Assembly: GCA_002842095.1 (NCBI GenBank)
Contig: PHCB01000011.1
Location: forward strand, 1 to 64,000
Direction of reading: 5' to 3'
Length of the DNA stretch: 64,000 bases
From: a candidate division BRC1 bacterium HGW-BRC1-1
GTDB taxonomy: Bacteria; Sumerlaeota; Sumerlaeia; Sumerlaeales; Sumerlaeaceae
This document shows positions 6,110 through 63,902 of the stretch, in pieces. The notes under the pieces were generated by a model that saw nothing but the letters and a program-made list of their open reading frames with translations, was not told where the DNA came from and ran no database searches. The position numbers and the translations under genes are program-made. The number at the start of each line of letters is the position of its first letter. Position 1 is the first letter of the stretch.

Positions 6110-8659
6110 ATGAGCAGTAACCTGAGTCCACAATCAGAGGCTGATGAGCCGGCAAGAGTGTTGCTGGAATCACTTTTGCGCGTTCCGCACATTCGCAACA
6201 ACGTGGCTCATGTGCATGAGATTCCTCCGCGCGAAGCGAAGTATGGGGAGTTTCCCGGGGACTTGGACCCGCGTCTGATCCAGGCTTTACAAGCGCGAGG
6301 TTACAACCGGCCTTATACGCACCAGGCTGCCGCCATCCAGCACGCCATGAATGAAAAAAACGTGGTGGTGGTTACGCCGACGGCGTCGGGGAAAACGCTT
6401 TGCTTTAATGTGCCCGTGATTCAACGGGTGCTCGAGGAACCCGAAGCCCGGGCACTATATCTTTTTCCCACGAAGGCTCTCGCGCAGGATCAATATGGTG
6501 AACTCCACCAGCTAACGCAGGCAGCGGACGGCCAGATCAAGGTCTACACGTTTGACGGGGACACACCCTCCAGTGCACGCAAAGCCATTCGATCAGCGGG
6601 TAGTCTCATCCTGACAAACCCCGACATGTTGCACGTAGGCATTCTTCCGCTTCACACCCAATGGATTCGTCTTTTCGAAAACCTGCGCTATATCGTTATC
6701 GATGAAATCCACGCATACCGCGGGGTGTTCGGAAGCCACGTGGCCAACGTGCTGCGACGTCTTCAGAGGATATGCGCCTTCTACGGCTCAGCCCCCACTT
6801 TCATCTGCGCATCGGCCACGATTGCCAATCCACGGGAAATTTCCGAGCAACTACTTGGCGCGGACGTGGAGCTTGTCAGTGAAAACGGTGCTCCGTCGGG
6901 GCGCAAATATTTCATGCTCTACAATCCGCCGGTCATAAACGAAGAGTTGGGAATTCGCCGGGGCGTGGTAAACGAGACGCGCCGTCTGGCGGCACGCACG
7001 CTGGCGGCCGAGGCCCAAACTATCGTCTTTGCTCGCAGCCGTATGAGGGTTGAGGTACTGCTGAACTACCTGCGCAAGACCATGCGCAAGCTGCACAAGA
7101 ATCCCATGAGAGTCGCCGGCTACCGGGGCGGTTACCTGCCGAATGAACGACGCCTGATTGAGCAGGGCGTAAAGAGCGGAGAAATTCTTGGGGTTGTCAG
7201 CACGAACGCCCTCGAGTTGGGCATCGACATAGGCCAGCTTCGCGTGGCAATTATCGCAGGATATCCCGGTTCCATTTCCGCAACCTGGCAACAGGCCGGC
7301 CGCGCCGGACGAAAAGCTGAATCGTCGCTGGCCATCATGGTGGCAAGCTCGGCACCGCTGGACCAATATCTTGCGGCAAATCCACATTTCTTATTTGGAC
7401 AGGCGCCGGAATCTGCAGTGGTGAATCCTGACCATGTTCAGATTTATGCCGAACATGTGAAGTGCGCGGCCTTTGAACTGCCTTTTGAAGATGGCGAGCA
7501 TTTCGGAGGGTTTCACCCACTGCCTTTGCTCCAGTATCTCGAAGACCAGCAGATTCTGCGTCACACGGGTAACCGGTGGCATTGGTCGAGCGACGTGTAC
7601 CCAAGCGAGCATGTATCCCTGCGTAGTGCCAGTTCGGAGAATTTTGTGGTGGTGAACACTTCCGACCGCAATCAGGTGATGGCCGAAGTGGATTTCGATT
7701 CGGCACCCATGCTCATCCACACCGAGGCGATTTACATGCATCTCGGAGAGACCTATTACATCGACAAGCTCGACTGGGACCGGCGCACCGCCTACGCGCG
7801 TCCGCAACAGTCAGATTACTACACCGATGCACTTTCGAAAACGGACATTCGAGTCCTGCGTGTGGATCAAACCTGCGACGCTTTTGCCGCGTCTTCCGAG
7901 GATGAAACTGCATCGGAGGATCAACCCTCAACGAAGCACGAGCGTCTGAAGGCCGGCGAAGAATATCCGTTGACCGCCACCCCGACGGCGGGACTGCCCG
8001 CAAGCAAAGACCTCCCTCCTTACGGGCCTGAGGAAATCCGACGACAAATGCAGGGATCTGGACCAGAAGAGAACGAGGCCGGCATTCCTCTTCCCGCCGC
8101 TACCGTGCCCATGATCGGACAGCCGATGTTGTCGCGAAACTTCGGTGAGGTCGTGGTTTCGACCCTGGTGGCCAAGTTCAAAAAGATCCGCTTCGAGACT
8201 CACGAAAACATCGGCTACGGCGATGTCAGCGTCCCTGTTCTGGAAACCCAGACGGAGGCCTATTGGCTGACGCTGTCGGCTGAAACAAAGGATCGTATCG
8301 AAGTTGCGGGCGGTGATCTCGGGGCGGCGCTGAATGGCATGGCGACGCTTCTTGCACAGGCCGCACCGTTGCACCTGCTGTGCGACCCGTCAGATTTGCG
8401 GGCTGTACCGATGGTTCGCGCTCCCCATGACGACCTTCCCGCCGTTTACTTGTGCGATCGTTACCCGGGCGGAATTGGTCTCGCGCGCAAGTTTTTCGAC
8501 ATCGATCTTCAAGTTCTCGCTGCCGCTCGAGACATTCTTGCCGGCTGTCCGTGCGCGACTGGTTGTCCTTCCTGCGTCGGTCCGGAAATTGAATTAGGGA
8601 CGAATGCGAAACGTGGCGCCATGATCCTGCTGGAGAGCATAGTGCGCCGCGCGGGGTGA
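6110..8659 (+). CDS. DEAD/DEAH-box helicase with DUF1998 zinc module (MrfA/YprA type)
   Basis: This is a superfamily 2 helicase of the YprA/MrfA group; B. subtilis MrfA acts in repair of mitomycin-type DNA damage. It is 849 residues, somewhat longer than MrfA. Visible motifs are Walker A (TPTASGKT, residues 89-96), DEIH (198-201), SATI, and the motif VI region QQAGRAGR. The C-terminus has the four-cysteine MrfA signature: Cys813, Cys815, Cys819 and Cys822 within CPCATGCPSC. An acidic, proline-rich insert around residues 585-660 separates the helicase core from the DUF1998 part and probably accounts for the extra length. Its stop codon abuts that of argH on the other strand, with no terminator between. 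Confidence 0.9.
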   Translation: MSSNLSPQSEADEPARVLLESLLRVPHIRNNVAHVHEIPPREAKYGEFPGDLDPRLIQALQARGYNRPYTHQAAAIQHAMNEKNVVVVTPTASGKTLCFNVPVIQRVLEEPEARALYLFPTKALAQDQYGELHQLTQAADGQIKVYTFDGDTPSSARKAIRSAGSLILTNPDMLHVGILPLHTQWIRLFENLRYIVIDEIHAYRGVFGSHVANVLRRLQRICAFYGSAPTFICASATIANPREISEQLLGADVELVSENGAPSGRKYFMLYNPPVINEELGIRRGVVNETRRLAARTLAAEAQTIVFARSRMRVEVLLNYLRKTMRKLHKNPMRVAGYRGGYLPNERRLIEQGVKSGEILGVVSTNALELGIDIGQLRVAIIAGYPGSISATWQQAGRAGRKAESSLAIMVASSAPLDQYLAANPHFLFGQAPESAVVNPDHVQIYAEHVKCAAFELPFEDGEHFGGFHPLPLLQYLEDQQILRHTGNRWHWSSDVYPSEHVSLRSASSENFVVVNTSDRNQVMAEVDFDSAPMLIHTEAIYMHLGETYYIDKLDWDRRTAYARPQQSDYYTDALSKTDIRVLRVDQTCDAFAASSEDETASEDQPSTKHERLKAGEEYPLTATPTAGLPASKDLPPYGPEEIRRQMQGSGPEENEAGIPLPAATVPMIGQPMLSRNFGEVVVSTLVAKFKKIRFETHENIGYGDVSVPVLETQTEAYWLTLSAETKDRIEVAGGDLGAALNGMATLLAQAAPLHLLCDPSDLRAVPMVRAPHDDLPAVYLCDRYPGGIGLARKFFDIDLQVLAAARDILAGCPCATGCPSCVGPEIELGTNAKRGAMILLESIVRRAG

Positions 8660-57310: not shown

Positions 57311-57476
57311 GACCAATGAAATAATAGTCACCGCAAGCCGCACGCAACAGCAAATCGGCTTCGAAGACCATGAATTCACTTATGCTTGCAGGTCGCTCTC
57401 CATCCGATGCGAGTGAAACACGGCAACGATTGATGCGAGGCACCCCTCGCCCTTGCCGCAAGATGAGGTGGAAAAC

Positions 57477-57869
57477 ATGAACGGTTGGATGACAGCAGGC
57501 TTGGTTGGTTTGGGTGGAGCCCTTGGTTCCCTGGCACGTTATGGCGTAACCCGACTATCATATCGCCTCTGGGGAGCGGCCTTTCCCTGGGGCACCATCA
57601 TTGTGAATGTATCCGGCGCCTTTCTGCTCGGGTTCGTCGCGACTTACCTTTTTTCGCGCTTCTCTTTTCTGGCCGAGGCACTGCGCCTGTCCCTGGCCAT
57701 TGGGTTTCTGGGAGCCTACACAACCTTCTCCACCTTCGAATGGGAGAGCCATCAACTATTCCAGACCGGAAATTGGTGGGCAGCGTCCGCTAATCTCATC
57801 GGAAGTGTAGCTGCCGGCCTCGTCGCAATTCGGCTCGGTGCGATGGCCGCCCAAGTTTGGAGCCAATAG
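57477..57869 (+). CDS. crcB: CrcB/Fluc fluoride exporter
   Basis: This small membrane protein exports fluoride and works as an antiparallel dimer. The 130-residue protein has four hydrophobic segments with GGALGSLARYGVTRL, NVSGAFLLGF and GFLGAYTTFSTFEWE, including the Asn and Phe/Ser/Thr residues of the pore. GAGGTG lies upstream of ATG 57477; ATG 57453 is not used. A GCGAGG/CCTCGC hairpin sits just before the ribosome site. I do not see a convincing fluoride riboswitch. Confidence 0.94.
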   Translation: MNGWMTAGLVGLGGALGSLARYGVTRLSYRLWGAAFPWGTIIVNVSGAFLLGFVATYLFSRFSFLAEALRLSLAIGFLGAYTTFSTFEWESHQLFQTGNWWAASANLIGSVAAGLVAIRLGAMAAQVWSQ

Positions 57870-57889: not shown

Positions 57890-60271
57890 CTAAGGCAGGG
57901 ACAACAACCAACCCGCGGCAGCATAACCCGACAGGGCTGCACCTTCAATGCGAGGACCACCCAAACCATCGCCCGCCACGACGAGCGGTGGGTATTGCTG
58001 AACGGGCAAAATGGGTTGAGTTGAAAGCGTCTTGGGTAAGCTGAATTTCCAACGACGGAGAATCTGCTTTTTTATCGGAGATGCAAGATAAGGCATAGCC
58101 GCCGCAGCCATGACGGGCGCAAGTTGCTCATCCGTCCAACCATAATGTTCCGCACTGAAATCGGGTTGGGCGTGGATCGTTACGGCATGAGCATTCGGCG
58201 AAATGCCCTTCATGTGGTTATCAGCGATCCAGGCGATGGGCCCGGTGTTGGCGGATAGCTTGATAGCTCCAGGATCTGGCAAACCGCTTGGTCCCTCCAA
58301 AATCGCGAGCAACGCAATGCACGGGTAATAGGTGATGGGGCCCAGTTTCTCCTGAAGTTCATCCGTAATTAGATCAGATGCGGCAAGTAGCTCCACCACC
58401 TGCGGCATGGGCATGGTTAAAATCAAAGACTTCCCATGCCAGCTTGCATCTTCCCCAGCGAACACTTCCCAGCCTTTGCTGGTTCGAGCAATGCGATCTG
58501 CTTTCACCTGAAGATGAACTTCAAGATCCTGGGCCAGATACTTGGGCCCCTGAGTCATTCCACGGGTCCCGCGAAATCTTGTATGGTGATCCGAATCATC
58601 CCCGACGTCCGCCCCCGAAAAACCGAAGCCCCAGCGACTGATTACTCCCGCGTCCGCCAAGTTGAGAACATTACGCCCGAAGACAGGGTCGCGGACCGTG
58701 AAGAACTGTGCCCCGTGATCAAAGACTCCCCCTTCGAATCTCCGCGTTGCCATGCGCCCACCCACTCCCCGAGCCTTGTCCAGGAGCACTGTTTGCACAC
58801 CGTGATCCGCAAGAGTTCGGGCGGCAGACAAGCCGGCCATGCCGGCTCCGATGACGAGACAATCAGCAACTCCACCGCGCGGGCGCTTAACCCAGATCGT
58901 AAAATCCATGACATTCAGACGCCGCAAGTGCGCCTCGCTGCTTCGGGCGCGAACGGTTCCGAGACGTAGAGTGGCTTGCGGTTGCGGTGAATCGAACAAT
59001 CCGAAACACCATTGAACTCCCCCGATAGAATTAGGGTCGGATCCATCCAGAGCATAACGATTATTGAGGTCGAGGGCCAGTTGAAGGCCTTCTCCGGCAT
59101 CTTGCATCCAGGAAGCGATGCACTTGCCCCACGTCATGCGAACGTTGTTGTGGAGCGTGCCATGTCGGACGAGTGATTGTTGGACCAGATCGAACAACGG
59201 ATCACCCGTCAGTCCACGCTCGATTTCATCCAGCGACGGACGCGAACGTCGGTGATTTGCCTGGTGGAACAAAGCCTCGCGGGCCCAGGGCGGCAAAGCT
59301 TCCAGAGTATCGTGTTCGGCGTGATACCTGCAAAAACAGTAGGACATCTCCCGCCAAACCGTCAGTTCATCTAGGAACTTGGAGGCACCGGCGGTATTGG
59401 AATCTCTCGCTTCCCGTGCAATCTGCCATGATGCAATCATCCCGTGATGAAGATACGGAGACAATCCACTTACAGCATGGGGCATTGCCGCGTCTGCTCG
59501 ATCTTCAGCATATCGATCAAGAGGACCATCGAGAAAAGCTCTCCACCGATTTAGAGCGGTAGCCTCTCCCCCACGGATGTCATGAACCCGTCCCACCGAA
59601 TGATCGATTTGCATGGAAGCAAGCAGACCGGGAATCTTTTCATCGGTAATCTCAGCAGATTCAAAGCCCGGATCACCCGACCACTGCGCGGGGGTGTCGG
59701 ACAAGTGAATCATCTGGTCGATCCAACCAGCGCGACGGGTAGCCGTTGATTTGCGAAATTGCGACGCACGATCTGAAGGGTGCCCGACAATTTGCATGGG
59801 AAGAATGCAAGCGGTATCCACGACATAAACAGGGCGACCCGATGATGCCGCCAGCTTTTCTCGCCACACCGGATAAGGTTCGCAGGGGAAATCCTCTGTA
59901 ACAATCAGTCCAGCACGCTTGAACAACCCGAGCATCTCTGGGGGAACTTCGATCTCCCGATCCCGAACAATGTGAACCAAGTGGCGCATGCCACGCTCAA
60001 CGAGAGCTTGGTGCAAAGCTGGTATGCCCTCAGCCACGAAGGCGATATGACGGTCTGAAGCGTGAGGAGATGAGGCAAAGACTCCCTGATATATTAAGAA
60101 GGGCAATCCGCGATCCAGCGCGAAGGCGGCAGCAGCCTCAAGCGCCGGGTTTTCCGCAGACCGAAGTGCCGTTGCCATCCAGTAAACGACAAATTCTCCA
60201 CCCGATTCGTCCCCGATATGCTCGAGCCGGATGCGACCTCCTTGCGGATTATCAGAAGATAGGATGTTCAT
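57890..60271 (-). CDS. Class II photolyase fused to renalase-like FAD oxidoreductase
   Basis: This 793-residue protein joins two flavin enzymes. Residues 1 to about 455 match class II CPD photolyase: VVYWMATALRSAENPAL at the N-terminus, WREMSYCFCRYHAEHD near residue 330, HGTLHNNVRMTWGKCI and NNRYALDGSDPNSIGG. Residues of about 465-793 are a separate FAD-dependent oxidoreductase: GAGMAGLSAARTLADHG (dinucleotide fold near 475), VGGRMATRR, DHGAQFFTVRD and DGLGGPRIEGAALSGYAAA, the pattern of renalase-like proteins. TTG 60277 is less likely than ATG 60271. It repairs UV dimers in its first half; the second half is unassigned. A single frame with no stop shows a true fusion. Confidence 0.88.
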   Translation of the reverse strand: MNILSSDNPQGGRIRLEHIGDESGGEFVVYWMATALRSAENPALEAAAAFALDRGLPFLIYQGVFASSPHASDRHIAFVAEGIPALHQALVERGMRHLVHIVRDREIEVPPEMLGLFKRAGLIVTEDFPCEPYPVWREKLAASSGRPVYVVDTACILPMQIVGHPSDRASQFRKSTATRRAGWIDQMIHLSDTPAQWSGDPGFESAEITDEKIPGLLASMQIDHSVGRVHDIRGGEATALNRWRAFLDGPLDRYAEDRADAAMPHAVSGLSPYLHHGMIASWQIAREARDSNTAGASKFLDELTVWREMSYCFCRYHAEHDTLEALPPWAREALFHQANHRRSRPSLDEIERGLTGDPLFDLVQQSLVRHGTLHNNVRMTWGKCIASWMQDAGEGLQLALDLNNRYALDGSDPNSIGGVQWCFGLFDSPQPQATLRLGTVRARSSEAHLRRLNVMDFTIWVKRPRGGVADCLVIGAGMAGLSAARTLADHGVQTVLLDKARGVGGRMATRRFEGGVFDHGAQFFTVRDPVFGRNVLNLADAGVISRWGFGFSGADVGDDSDHHTRFRGTRGMTQGPKYLAQDLEVHLQVKADRIARTSKGWEVFAGEDASWHGKSLILTMPMPQVVELLAASDLITDELQEKLGPITYYPCIALLAILEGPSGLPDPGAIKLSANTGPIAWIADNHMKGISPNAHAVTIHAQPDFSAEHYGWTDEQLAPVMAAAAMPYLASPIKKQILRRWKFSLPKTLSTQPILPVQQYPPLVVAGDGLGGPRIEGAALSGYAAAGWLLSLP

Positions 60272-60436
60272 GATCAATTCTGGGAATGCAGACTGTTCTG
60301 CAATGGATGACTCCTTTGAGCAAGGTTTAACGGTTCAAGCTCGCCCCCGAAGATGAATCAAAGAATGATTTTTCCTTTCACCCAGCCCTACTTCTTTCAA
60401 TCATCAGAAGTGCTCTTACCACTACATGGAGTGCCC

Positions 60437-61390
60437 ATGTCCCCGAAGACGGATCTGCCGAAGAAATTACGCGACAACATCGCCCGGGTCATCATCGGCA
60501 AGGACGAGGTTATTGAACTTGCCCTGACGGCGTTCCTCGCCGGTGGCCATTTGCTGGTGGAAGACGTGCCCGGTCTGGCAAAAACACTGCTCGCGCGGGC
60601 CATCGCTCGCAGTGTGGAAGCTCAATTCCAACGGGTACAATTTACCCCCGACCTGCTCCCCTCAGACATCACGGGGGTTTCGATTTATAACGAGCGCGAG
60701 CACCTGTTCGAATTCCGCCGCGGGCCCGTATTTGCCAACATTCTCCTGGGCGACGAACTCAACCGCGCTACGCCACGCACGCAATCTGCTCTGCTGGAGG
60801 CCATGGAGGAGCGCCAGGTTACCGTCGACGGAATTTCGCATCCACTGCCCAATCCATTCTTCGTAATGGCGACGCAAAACCCTGTTGAACAACAGGGTGT
60901 ATATCCTCTGCCCGAAGCGCAGGTCGACCGCTTCCTCATGCAGATATCCATCGGATATCCCTCTGCGGCGGATGAAGTTCGCATCATCGAAAGTCGTTTG
61001 GCGGGCTCGCCCCTTGATGAACTGAAACCGGTTTTGTCCGTTGAAGAACTTCTCGATATCCAAAAAGCAGTGCGACGCATTCATGTGGACTCGACCGTTT
61101 CACAATATGTCGTGCGACTGGTTGACGCCACACGACGCCATCCCGACTTGATTCTGGGGGGCAGTCCGCGTGCTTCCCTATCACTTCTGTTATCCGGCCA
61201 GGCCCTCGCTTTCTTACGTGGCGAGCCTTTTGTAACTCCGGATCTAATAAAAGCTTTGGCACCTCCGGTACTTCGACACCGCCTGATCGTGCGGCCCCAG
61301 TCCGTTCTTGGTGGTCGAACTCCTGATCAGATTATCCGCGAATTACTTGATGAAATTCCCGTCCCTTTGCTGACCGGCGAATTCATCTGA
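60437..61390 (+). CDS. MoxR-family AAA ATPase
   Basis: This is a MoxR AAA+ ATPase of 317 residues, a chaperone-like partner of the DUF58 and von Willebrand proteins. Walker A is GHLLVEDVPGLAKTLLA, Walker B falls in ILLGDELNRATPRTQSALLEAMEE, and the sensor MATQNPVEQQGVYPLPEAQVDRFL follows. GGAG lies five bases before ATG 60437. It is followed 23 bases on by DUF58. Confidence 0.95.
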   Translation: MSPKTDLPKKLRDNIARVIIGKDEVIELALTAFLAGGHLLVEDVPGLAKTLLARAIARSVEAQFQRVQFTPDLLPSDITGVSIYNEREHLFEFRRGPVFANILLGDELNRATPRTQSALLEAMEERQVTVDGISHPLPNPFFVMATQNPVEQQGVYPLPEAQVDRFLMQISIGYPSAADEVRIIESRLAGSPLDELKPVLSVEELLDIQKAVRRIHVDSTVSQYVVRLVDATRRHPDLILGGSPRASLSLLLSGQALAFLRGEPFVTPDLIKALAPPVLRHRLIVRPQSVLGGRTPDQIIRELLDEIPVPLLTGEFI

Positions 61391-61413
61391 TCCTCTAAGC
61401 GACTCCCCCATTC

Positions 61414-62694
61414 ATGTCGAACAGCCCCGACCAAGACTTTCAGTTTCACCTCTTCACGAGGCGCAACGTCGTATTGTTTTTATCCTCCTTCACTTTGATT
61501 GCCGGGTTGGCTTCCGCTTCACGAGCCACTTTTGGTTTCGGTCTTTTTCTTCTTACGCTCGTTATCTTCGAATGGTTGGAAGGACGACGCGTGCAGAGCG
61601 GGATTTCCTTACAACGTCTCCATTATCCGAGAGCTTTTGAGGGTGACCGCGTTACGGTGGATTTAACCGCCGAGAACCGATCGAAGCGGACGGCCCATCT
61701 TGTCGAGATCATCGATTCCTTCTCCCCCTCGGGCAATTATCATCTGGGCCATGTAGCGCCCAACCTGCTGGCGGGTGAAGGCGTTCAGTTCCGATACCGG
61801 CAAACCTGCAAGCATCACCGCGGCATTTATCTGATTGGTCCACTTCGCCTTCGCACACATTCACCCGTGGGACTTTTCACCTTCAACCAAACTCGCGACA
61901 TCGTAACGACGCTGCATGTCTATCCGCAATCTGTGGGCATTATGGGATTCGAAGTTCTTGGCCGGGGAACCCTGCTGGAAATTGGCGAGGCAGTCGTGCG
62001 CCGGATCGGACGCGGAGAACAGTTTGCTCAGTTACGCGACTACCGCGCCGGCGATCCTCCGCGCTACATCCACTGGCCATCCACTGCTCGCAGAGGGTTT
62101 CCTCTCGTAAAGGAATTTGAGCAAAATGTCGTCACAGAAATTACGATTTACTGCGACCTCCATCTGCTGTCGCTGGCCGGTCTGGGTAACAACACTTCGC
62201 TGGAAATGCGCATCAAGGCAGCGGCTTCCATCGCTTCGGAAGCGATACGACACCAACATCTGGTGAGGGTTGTTGCGGTCAAAGACCCCATGGACATGAC
62301 CACCCTTGCCGCGGGCCGCGACCATTTAACCGCCATCCTCGACTGGTTGGCCCTCCTTAAGGCGGAGGGGATCGGGAGTTTCGAAGCTCCCGTTATGAAC
62401 GACGCAGAGCTGTTGAGGGCCGGGTCCACCGCGGTGCTGATTCTCAGCACAATCAACATGAGAACCGAGGCTACAGCCAGACTTGTTCAACTCCTTGTGT
62501 TGCGTCGCGTGAAAACAATCTGCGTTTTGGTCGATGACCGCTCATTTCTCAAACTTCGCACAGAGCAGGATCAGGCATTTGCAGATGCACTGCCATTGGC
62601 ACAGCAGATCGGGATCCTGAAAGAGGCGGGCGCAGATATCTTCACGGTCCTCAACCAGCAAAACCTGGCGACGCAACTCAGGCTGCCATCATGA
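61414..62694 (+). CDS. DUF58 domain protein
   Basis: This 426-residue protein has two hydrophobic segments near the N-terminus (about 14-50) and then the DUF58 region. The DUF58 hallmark is RYIHWPSTARRGFPLVKEFEQ, in a von-Willebrand-like fold; EFEQN then begins the VWA-like half. Its stop overlaps the DUF4129 start by ATGA. DUF58 with MoxR is a conserved pair; the function is not known in detail. Confidence 0.92.
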   Translation: MSNSPDQDFQFHLFTRRNVVLFLSSFTLIAGLASASRATFGFGLFLLTLVIFEWLEGRRVQSGISLQRLHYPRAFEGDRVTVDLTAENRSKRTAHLVEIIDSFSPSGNYHLGHVAPNLLAGEGVQFRYRQTCKHHRGIYLIGPLRLRTHSPVGLFTFNQTRDIVTTLHVYPQSVGIMGFEVLGRGTLLEIGEAVVRRIGRGEQFAQLRDYRAGDPPRYIHWPSTARRGFPLVKEFEQNVVTEITIYCDLHLLSLAGLGNNTSLEMRIKAAASIASEAIRHQHLVRVVAVKDPMDMTTLAAGRDHLTAILDWLALLKAEGIGSFEAPVMNDAELLRAGSTAVLILSTINMRTEATARLVQLLVLRRVKTICVLVDDRSFLKLRTEQDQAFADALPLAQQIGILKEAGADIFTVLNQQNLATQLRLPS

Positions 62695-63902
62695 CGCCCC
62701 TGCCACGAACAGAAGAACGGGCAGAAAGTCGCATCGCATTCGGACTTGGTTTTGCCTTAATCCTCACCGCTGCCATTCCGACCTCTCTGGTGCTATTGCA
62801 GAATTTCCCAGACTGGAATCTCGCCAGAGTCATCGCGATCGTTATCGGCCTTTATGCGGTCCTCCTCACCATCGGGATTGCCGGACGCGATTCAATCTCG
62901 GATTTGCTCCGCTCCGGCCCTCCGTCACAAGCCGTCTTTCTCTGGGCGGCCTCCGGCGCTCTCTTCATATCACCGGCACTCTTTCAAGGCCGCTTCAATT
63001 TCGCGGTTGGAGTGTCCTTGGTGTTGGTTCCCCTAGCCCTTGTGGTCGGAACGGAAGGAGGGATTTCACGTTTTCTTCTGCTTTGCGGAACCCTCTTCGT
63101 CGCGACCGCCACCCGCATTCCCGAGCCACAGAGTTATATCCTTCTGGGAGCGTTCAGCGCGTGTTTTCTTGCGTCTCTATCCCACGCTCATTTCTTTCTG
63201 AGACTTTCCCATTTCCGTTCCGTGGCAAAATTCGGCGCGTTCATTCCCTTCGGCAATGCAGTAAGGCAGGCCGCGTCTGCCGGTTTCGTCACCCTCACCT
63301 TGTTATGGTTAACCCCCGACCTCAAACCCCTGAAGAGTTTGCTACTGCCCGCCTCCAGAGAACTTCGGCGCCGATCTCCCATCACTCAGAATACGATAAC
63401 AGAAGTTTCGATGCTCAGGCAGGTGATCTACAGCATTCTGCTGTTGTTGGTCACCGTGGCAGCTTTGGCTTTCTCGCGTTGGATAATCGACCGCTTTCAG
63501 AAGCGACGAGAAGCCCCCTTACCGGAATCTGTCGGGGTGCCCATGGGAACACCATACGCGATAAAGCGCACCGAATCGAGAACAGCGCCTTCAATTCCAG
63601 ACGAGCCCCGCGAAAAAATTGCAGCGAAGTTTCGTCAACTCTCGCAAGATATGGAACGCGTCGGTGCGGCTCGGCGGCCTTCCCAAACTGCGGAAGAATT
63701 CCTACAGGGTCTCATCACCCGCGGTGATCTTCCGCAGGATGAGATATCCCGACTGACCCACGATTTCATTTCATCGCGCTATTCGGATGAGGCCGTCAGC
63801 CCCACAAAAGCAGCAGCGTACGCAACCCGTGTTGATCGATTCCTGAGCGGATTGAAGGTCATGAAAGCAAAATCGAGTGGCTCAGAGGAAAACGCAGATT
63901 AA
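62691..63902 (+). CDS. DUF4129-type membrane protein
   Basis: This 403-residue membrane protein has about seven hydrophobic segments and a C-terminal soluble part. The terminal portion around residues 325-390 (RRPSQTAEEFLQGL and later SSRYSDEAVSP) matches DUF4129, which often follows MoxR and DUF58 with a transglutaminase-like gene. No transglutaminase gene is in the window. Its stop codon overlaps that of ispF on the minus strand. Confidence 0.8.
   Translation: MTPLPRTEERAESRIAFGLGFALILTAAIPTSLVLLQNFPDWNLARVIAIVIGLYAVLLTIGIAGRDSISDLLRSGPPSQAVFLWAASGALFISPALFQGRFNFAVGVSLVLVPLALVVGTEGGISRFLLLCGTLFVATATRIPEPQSYILLGAFSACFLASLSHAHFFLRLSHFRSVAKFGAFIPFGNAVRQAASAGFVTLTLLWLTPDLKPLKSLLLPASRELRRRSPITQNTITEVSMLRQVIYSILLLLVTVAALAFSRWIIDRFQKRREAPLPESVGVPMGTPYAIKRTESRTAPSIPDEPREKIAAKFRQLSQDMERVGAARRPSQTAEEFLQGLITRGDLPQDEISRLTHDFISSRYSDEAVSPTKAAAYATRVDRFLSGLKVMKAKSSGSEENAD

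Follow-up and report, generated by a model that had tools for sequence, protein, structure and literature searches.

Two flavoenzymes, a class II photolyase and a renalase-like FAD enzyme, are encoded in a single chain in this Sumerlaeota genome. The preliminary description had read such a chain from the letters alone, and sequence, trees and fold now bear it out. Within the window (the whole stretch of DNA analysed, 64,000 nucleotides), the fused gene occupies positions 57890-60271, as first reported; its strand, absent from that description, is minus. The open frame is intact and runs from an ATG at 60271 to a stop at 57890-57892, comprising 793 codons plus the stop, with an in-frame TTG at 60277. 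The plus-strand frame over the same positions is riddled with stops. Judged from sequence appearance, a CrcB-like gene lies downstream of the fusion (57453-57869, plus strand), and a divergent run of MoxR, DUF58 and membrane-protein genes lies upstream (60353-63902, plus strand).

Domains and fold of the fused protein

The check proposed earlier, a search of both halves against domain databases, was run with Pfam and NCBIfam and placed photolyase domains at the N-terminus and FAD/NAD oxidoreductase domains at the C-terminus. The photolyase half (aa 1-457; 58901-60271, minus strand) comprises an alpha/beta antenna-type domain at aa ~28-162 and a helical FAD domain at aa ~232-457. It matches DNA_photolyase, FAD_binding_7 (weakly) and the phr2 model TIGR00591, the last over aa 18-458 and nearly the whole model (E 1.1e-74). 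The score of this match, 252 bits, lies below the curated cut-off of 550, as do the scores of P0003, an ordinary paralogue that stands alone (524 bits), and of two other stand-alone enzymes (512 and 337). A linker of about 10 residues, set by the domain borders (aa 458-467; 58871-58900, minus strand), leads into the renalase-family FAD oxidoreductase half (aa 468-793; 57893-58870, minus strand). This half matches Amino_oxidase and NAD_binding_8, together an amine-oxidase-type FAD/NAD-binding domain, and finds the Pseudomonas renalase 4zcc by phmmer (E 1e-28). Its sequence carries the FAD motif GAGMAG (aa 475-480; nt 58832-58849, minus strand) and the motif GGRMATR (aa 504-510). LSD1-type matches at aa 432-525 were set aside as local similarity around the FAD motif only.

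Among solved structures, aa 13-453 are closest to the class II photolyases of M. mazei and rice, and aa 472-790 to Pseudomonas renalase. AlphaFold modelling of the whole chain depended on input depth: 7 sequences gave a poor model (pTM 0.47), and 101 relatives gave a mean pLDDT of 95.1 and a pTM of 0.95. On this model, the full chain is confidently predicted to fold as a single unit. The class assignment of the photolyase half, whose failure had been named as a possible refutation, holds by fold: class II structures head its structural ranking (VIA-align, Z 44-46), with class I enzymes and cryptochromes at Z ~30-32. Compared with class II CPD photolyases (MmCPDII, 2xry/4cdn; rice, 3umv), the protein has a common fold over aa 2-462 (Z 45-46, reaching 46 for 3umv/4cdn; rmsd 2.3-2.5; 27-28% identity) and most lesion-site residues together with W381 and W388. 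In contrast to them, it adds the C-terminal renalase-like domain, the motif RMTWGK and the change W360F, and lacks Y345, K384, E387, W431 and R429.

The C-terminal half has a common fold with bacterial renalases (Pseudomonas 4zcc/4zcd/5krq; 3kkj) over aa 468-793 (Z 38.6-39.8, rmsd 1.9-2.1, 27-29% identity), including the FAD motif; the best match is the renalase-NADH structure 4zcc (Z 39.8 over 314 residues, rmsd 1.9). Renalase structures matched by this half, with ~310 residues aligned, were solved with NADH, NAD+ and NADPH. It differs from these enzymes in being fused to a photolyase and, in Sumerlaeota, in several otherwise conserved positions. The renalase halves of the window protein and of its sister in genome G002 carry P689G, R691S, V698T and H739R relative to the rest of the renalase family, and W538L is present in the window protein only. 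As these positions are conserved across the family, the substrate may have changed in Sumerlaeota.

Distribution and origin of the fusion

A frameshift or assembly join within about 58860-58920 had been raised as a way in which the single chain could be illusory. The chance that two genes were joined by assembly or sequencing is negligible, and we rejected such an artefact, since homologous fusions are present in about 80 genomes, which also answers the earlier suggestion to look for the same fusion elsewhere. The sister genome G002 shares its family with that of the window, its contig (L055) being deposited as a MAG of Candidatus Sumerlaeaceae. It encodes a full-length homologue in a 799-codon frame with 52% identity, and a MoxR-type gene adjoins the fusion in both genomes in the same divergent arrangement. 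Carriers belong to Sumerlaeota, Pirellulales, Myxococcota, Gemmatimonadota and one further class, with some copies on chromosome-length contigs. A scan of species genomes detected the fusion in Pirellulaceae, Planctomycetaceae, Myxococcales, Gemmatimonadaceae and one unplaced bacterium, the Planctomycetaceae and Gemmatimonadaceae copies being cut short by the end of the contig or stretch. Broader searches recovered it in ~35 of 296 genomes when aimed at Pirellulales, ~20 of 195 for Myxococcota, ~16 of 249 for Gemmatimonadota and 11 of 154 for the class of G062; these counts include a few truncated copies, and matches ending at the photolyase half were removed by eye. In the open-access literature (subscription papers lay mostly outside the search), we found no paper pairing photolyase with renalase and, among the titles and abstracts listed, none relevant to such fusions; a literature search for DUF2256 together with photolyase likewise returned none.

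A quick tree built from 126 photolyase halves has a single branch (SH-aLRT 100) that separates the fusions and three truncated members from all other rows. The clade is marked by the threonine of RMTWGK at codon 380 (59132-59134, minus strand), present in 77/78 fusions. Only four unfused rows carry Thr380: one is part of the G002 fusion, and the others are the truncated clade members L034, L035 and L138. L034 is cut by a contig end, L035 has its stop just ahead of one, and L138 (G632), which lies inside a large contig, retains only ~47 renalase-half residues. Because the photolyase halves make up one strongly supported clade with this marker, the fusion, an old one, probably arose once, as judged from these sequences.

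For the renalase halves, AU tests were run with a data set thinned to 34 rows. A clade of all fusions was rejected (p-AU 1.1e-6), and the fusions together with two stand-alone Sumerlaeota genes (L003, L004) were compatible with one clade (p-AU 0.71); the groups were picked after the first tree had been seen, so these p-values are indicative. In G009 and G018, MAGs of another Sumerlaeota family that are 92% and 82% complete, no class II photolyase match was found and the renalase half stands alone. The photolyase half therefore seems, from the trees and gene content, to have been lost later in that family.

Repair and electron-transfer residues

Lesion-binding and bubble residues were taken from PMC6126647, with M. 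mazei numbering. In the alignment, the window protein keeps R164, R256, E301, W305, M379, W381, W388, N403, R405, D409, W421, D428 and R441, and is changed at N257A, W360F, Y345P, Y380T, K384C, E387S, R429S and W431Q. In the lesion-binding set (R164, R256, N257, E301, W305, M379, W421, D428/R441), only N257 is changed, and this residue is kept in the sister G002; N403 and D409 of the FAD pocket are likewise retained. Duplex CPD repair may nevertheless be weak in the window protein, given R429S, N257A and the missing aromatic bubble residue W431.

These residues bear on whether the photolyase half has given up repair and become a light sensor controlling the oxidoreductase fused to it. Both Sumerlaeota fusions are altered at the bubble residues R429 and W431, and fusion genomes usually encode a normal class II photolyase as well. 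In the window genome and in G002, an ordinary class II photolyase whose chain is intact is encoded by a gene of its own, and a second, stand-alone class II photolyase (a few fragmentary) occurs in 63 of the 72 fusion genomes that were re-searched, a count covering fusion genomes only. The loss of several lesion-site residues in L101 and L103 points in the same direction. However, nearly all of the 78 fusions, the window protein among them, retain most lesion-contact residues, and a pure sensor would have no need of them, which leaves this reading quite improbable. In L101 and L103 (L167) themselves, E301R and a change at M379 are common to both, L101 is also changed at R441 and R256, and L103 at W388 and W421; this pattern suggests that their photolyase halves would be non-repairing. 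A separate renalase-like gene also accompanies the fusion in two genomes (G432:C54:28889-29914 and G512:C341:162-1169).

The W381-W360-W388-Y345 electron-transfer chain is described as almost strictly conserved (PMC5885780), and we treated it as typical of class II rather than class-defining. Alignment of this chain, proposed in the preliminary description, gave a divided result for the window protein: W381 and W388 are kept, whereas W360 is Phe (codon 360; 59192-59194, minus strand) and Y345 is Pro. Position 360 is Tyr in the sister G002. Across the fusions, W360 is kept in 76/78 and W381 and W388 in nearly all. Y345, K384 and E387 are altered in most fusions and kept in most stand-alone class II enzymes, where 384 is sometimes Arg; at position 380, the Thr of the fusions is usually Leu or Tyr in stand-alone enzymes.

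These changes bear on the role suggested in the preliminary description, a supply of reduced FAD: as an on-board reductase, the renalase half would pass nicotinamide electrons to the photolyase FAD and keep it as FADH- in the dark, with less or no need for photoreduction through the Trp chain. The Phe and Tyr at position 360 in the two Sumerlaeota fusions and the erosion of Y345, Y380, K384 and E387 across the fusion clade, the short linker of the confident single-unit model and the binding of NAD(P)H in renalase structures all argue for it. Trp-to-Phe mutants of MmCPDII photoreduce more slowly, and the in vivo role of Trp-chain photoreduction is controversial (PMC5885780). Against it, W360, W381 and W388 are so widely kept that photoreduction should still be possible in most of the fusions, 1,4-NAD(P)H is not oxidised by human renalase (PMC7660482), and the renalase half persists in G009 and G018, where no class II photolyase was matched. 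We consider such a reductase possible but unlikely. Its narrower form, in which the renalase-like half would feed the repair flavin after replacing light-driven Trp-chain photoreduction in Sumerlaeota, is a little more doubtful again. A general rule that the fusion compensates for a broken Trp triad was rejected, as W360 is intact in 76/78 fusions.

Light-linked surroundings and a possible dual role in photodamage repair

Photolyase-type and DUF2256 genes adjoin several fusions. In G002, a DUF2256 gene lies immediately upstream and overlaps the likely start of the fusion (L002:~1331-1499), and in the Pirellulaceae locus L156 a DUF2256 gene (6195-6410) and a full photolyase-type gene (DNA_photolyase plus FAD_binding_7) are immediately upstream. 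The fusions of L075 and L143 have a photolyase-type neighbour, and that of L150 adjoins an ordinary class II photolyase. No DUF2256 gene was found in the window genome. Beside a truncated form of the fusion there is a small DUF2256 (PF10013) gene (L166:~6725), and in two Pirellulales genomes Fpg/Nei-type glycosylase and UvrD helicase genes are situated within ~7 kb of the fusion (L161:919-1734; L158:14658-17111).

Stand-alone renalase-like genes on plasmids of Asticcacaulis, Burkholderia, Sphingobium and Rhizobium belong to the same family as the C-terminal half (26-33% identity); in Asticcacaulis and Burkholderia a photolyase or photolyase-type gene is nearby, although as a separate gene. At 11 of 12 chosen plasmid loci, with markers judged by eye and no background rate, at least one neighbour is tied to light or photo-oxidative stress or recurs in such clusters. 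The markers were photolyase, photolyase-type FAD protein, DUF2256, FolE, MerR, ECF sigma factor with ChrR, PAS, bacteriorhodopsin, carotenoid genes, katG and AarF/UbiB kinase. Proximity of photolyase and renalase is clear at only three of the 12 loci. On two Asticcacaulis plasmids (L168:4070-6176, L177:1749-3855), there is an 11-base overlap between the renalase-like gene and a gene for a 390-aa FAD-binding-domain protein, in which Pfam detected FAD_binding_7 and no DNA_photolyase domain (L168). On the Burkholderia plasmid, the photolyase is ~5 kb from the renalase-like gene, with DUF2256, FolE, MerR and a sigma factor close by. Eight other loci have looser links (FolE, SDR, DUF3429, AarF/UbiB kinase, ChrR, PAS, bacteriorhodopsin, carotenoid genes, katG), and the Deinococcus locus showed no light-linked neighbour. 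In Pseudomonas, a light-response region combines phrB with an SDR and an FAD oxidoreductase (PMC9758184), which may or may not be renalase-like.

The frequent placement of folE, SDR and DUF3429 genes beside the stand-alone relatives, together with folE, folM and folX in the Pseudomonas light-response system (PMC9758184), is consistent with a C-terminal half that acts not on nicotinamides but on another small molecule of the light response, such as a reduced pterin or an antenna chromophore. Yet at the few fusion loci inspected, which lack systematic annotation, folE and SDR neighbours were not identified, and both fold and sequence indicate NAD(P)H-binding renalases; a substrate of this kind is improbable.

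We favour, tentatively and at slightly less than even probability, a bifunctional flavoprotein for photodamage repair that would act on DNA dimers and on mis-reduced NAD(P)H isomers. The N-terminal half would carry out light-driven repair of UV dimers in DNA, and the C-terminal half, like known renalases, would oxidise mis-reduced 1,2-/1,6-NAD(P)H isomers and return NAD(P)+. Renalases oxidise these isomers, which arise also by photochemical reduction (PMC7660482); in the cell they would stem from photochemical or radical redox events, so that both activities may be directed at the same cause, strong light. Elsewhere, separate genes would serve the two functions, often in light-response clusters, and gene fusion would fix their 1:1 expression and co-location; electrons would not need to pass between the two flavins. 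This two-activity account draws on the light-linked surroundings, the substrate range of renalases, the triad intact in most fusions, the lesion-site and FAD-pocket residues retained in the window protein, the match to nicotinamide-bound renalase structures, the stand-alone class II photolyase that usually accompanies the fusion, and the persistence in Sumerlaeota of a lone renalase half without a class II photolyase match, which fits an independent activity. Against it stand the changed family positions of the Sumerlaeota renalase halves, the possibly weak duplex repair by the window protein and the looseness of most plasmid links; co-expression alone also leaves the changes on the photoreduction side of the fusion clade (Y345, Y380, K384, E387) unexplained.

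By what means photolyases maintain a reduced flavin in the cell is controversial, as is the in vivo importance of Trp-chain photoreduction (PMC5885780). A widespread natural photolyase joined to a flavoenzyme of the nicotinamide-binding type, and lacking the middle Trp in one of its branches, allows a direct test of this controversy. The fusion also connects bacterial light stress with the renalase family, whose members have otherwise been studied mainly in the context of human physiology.
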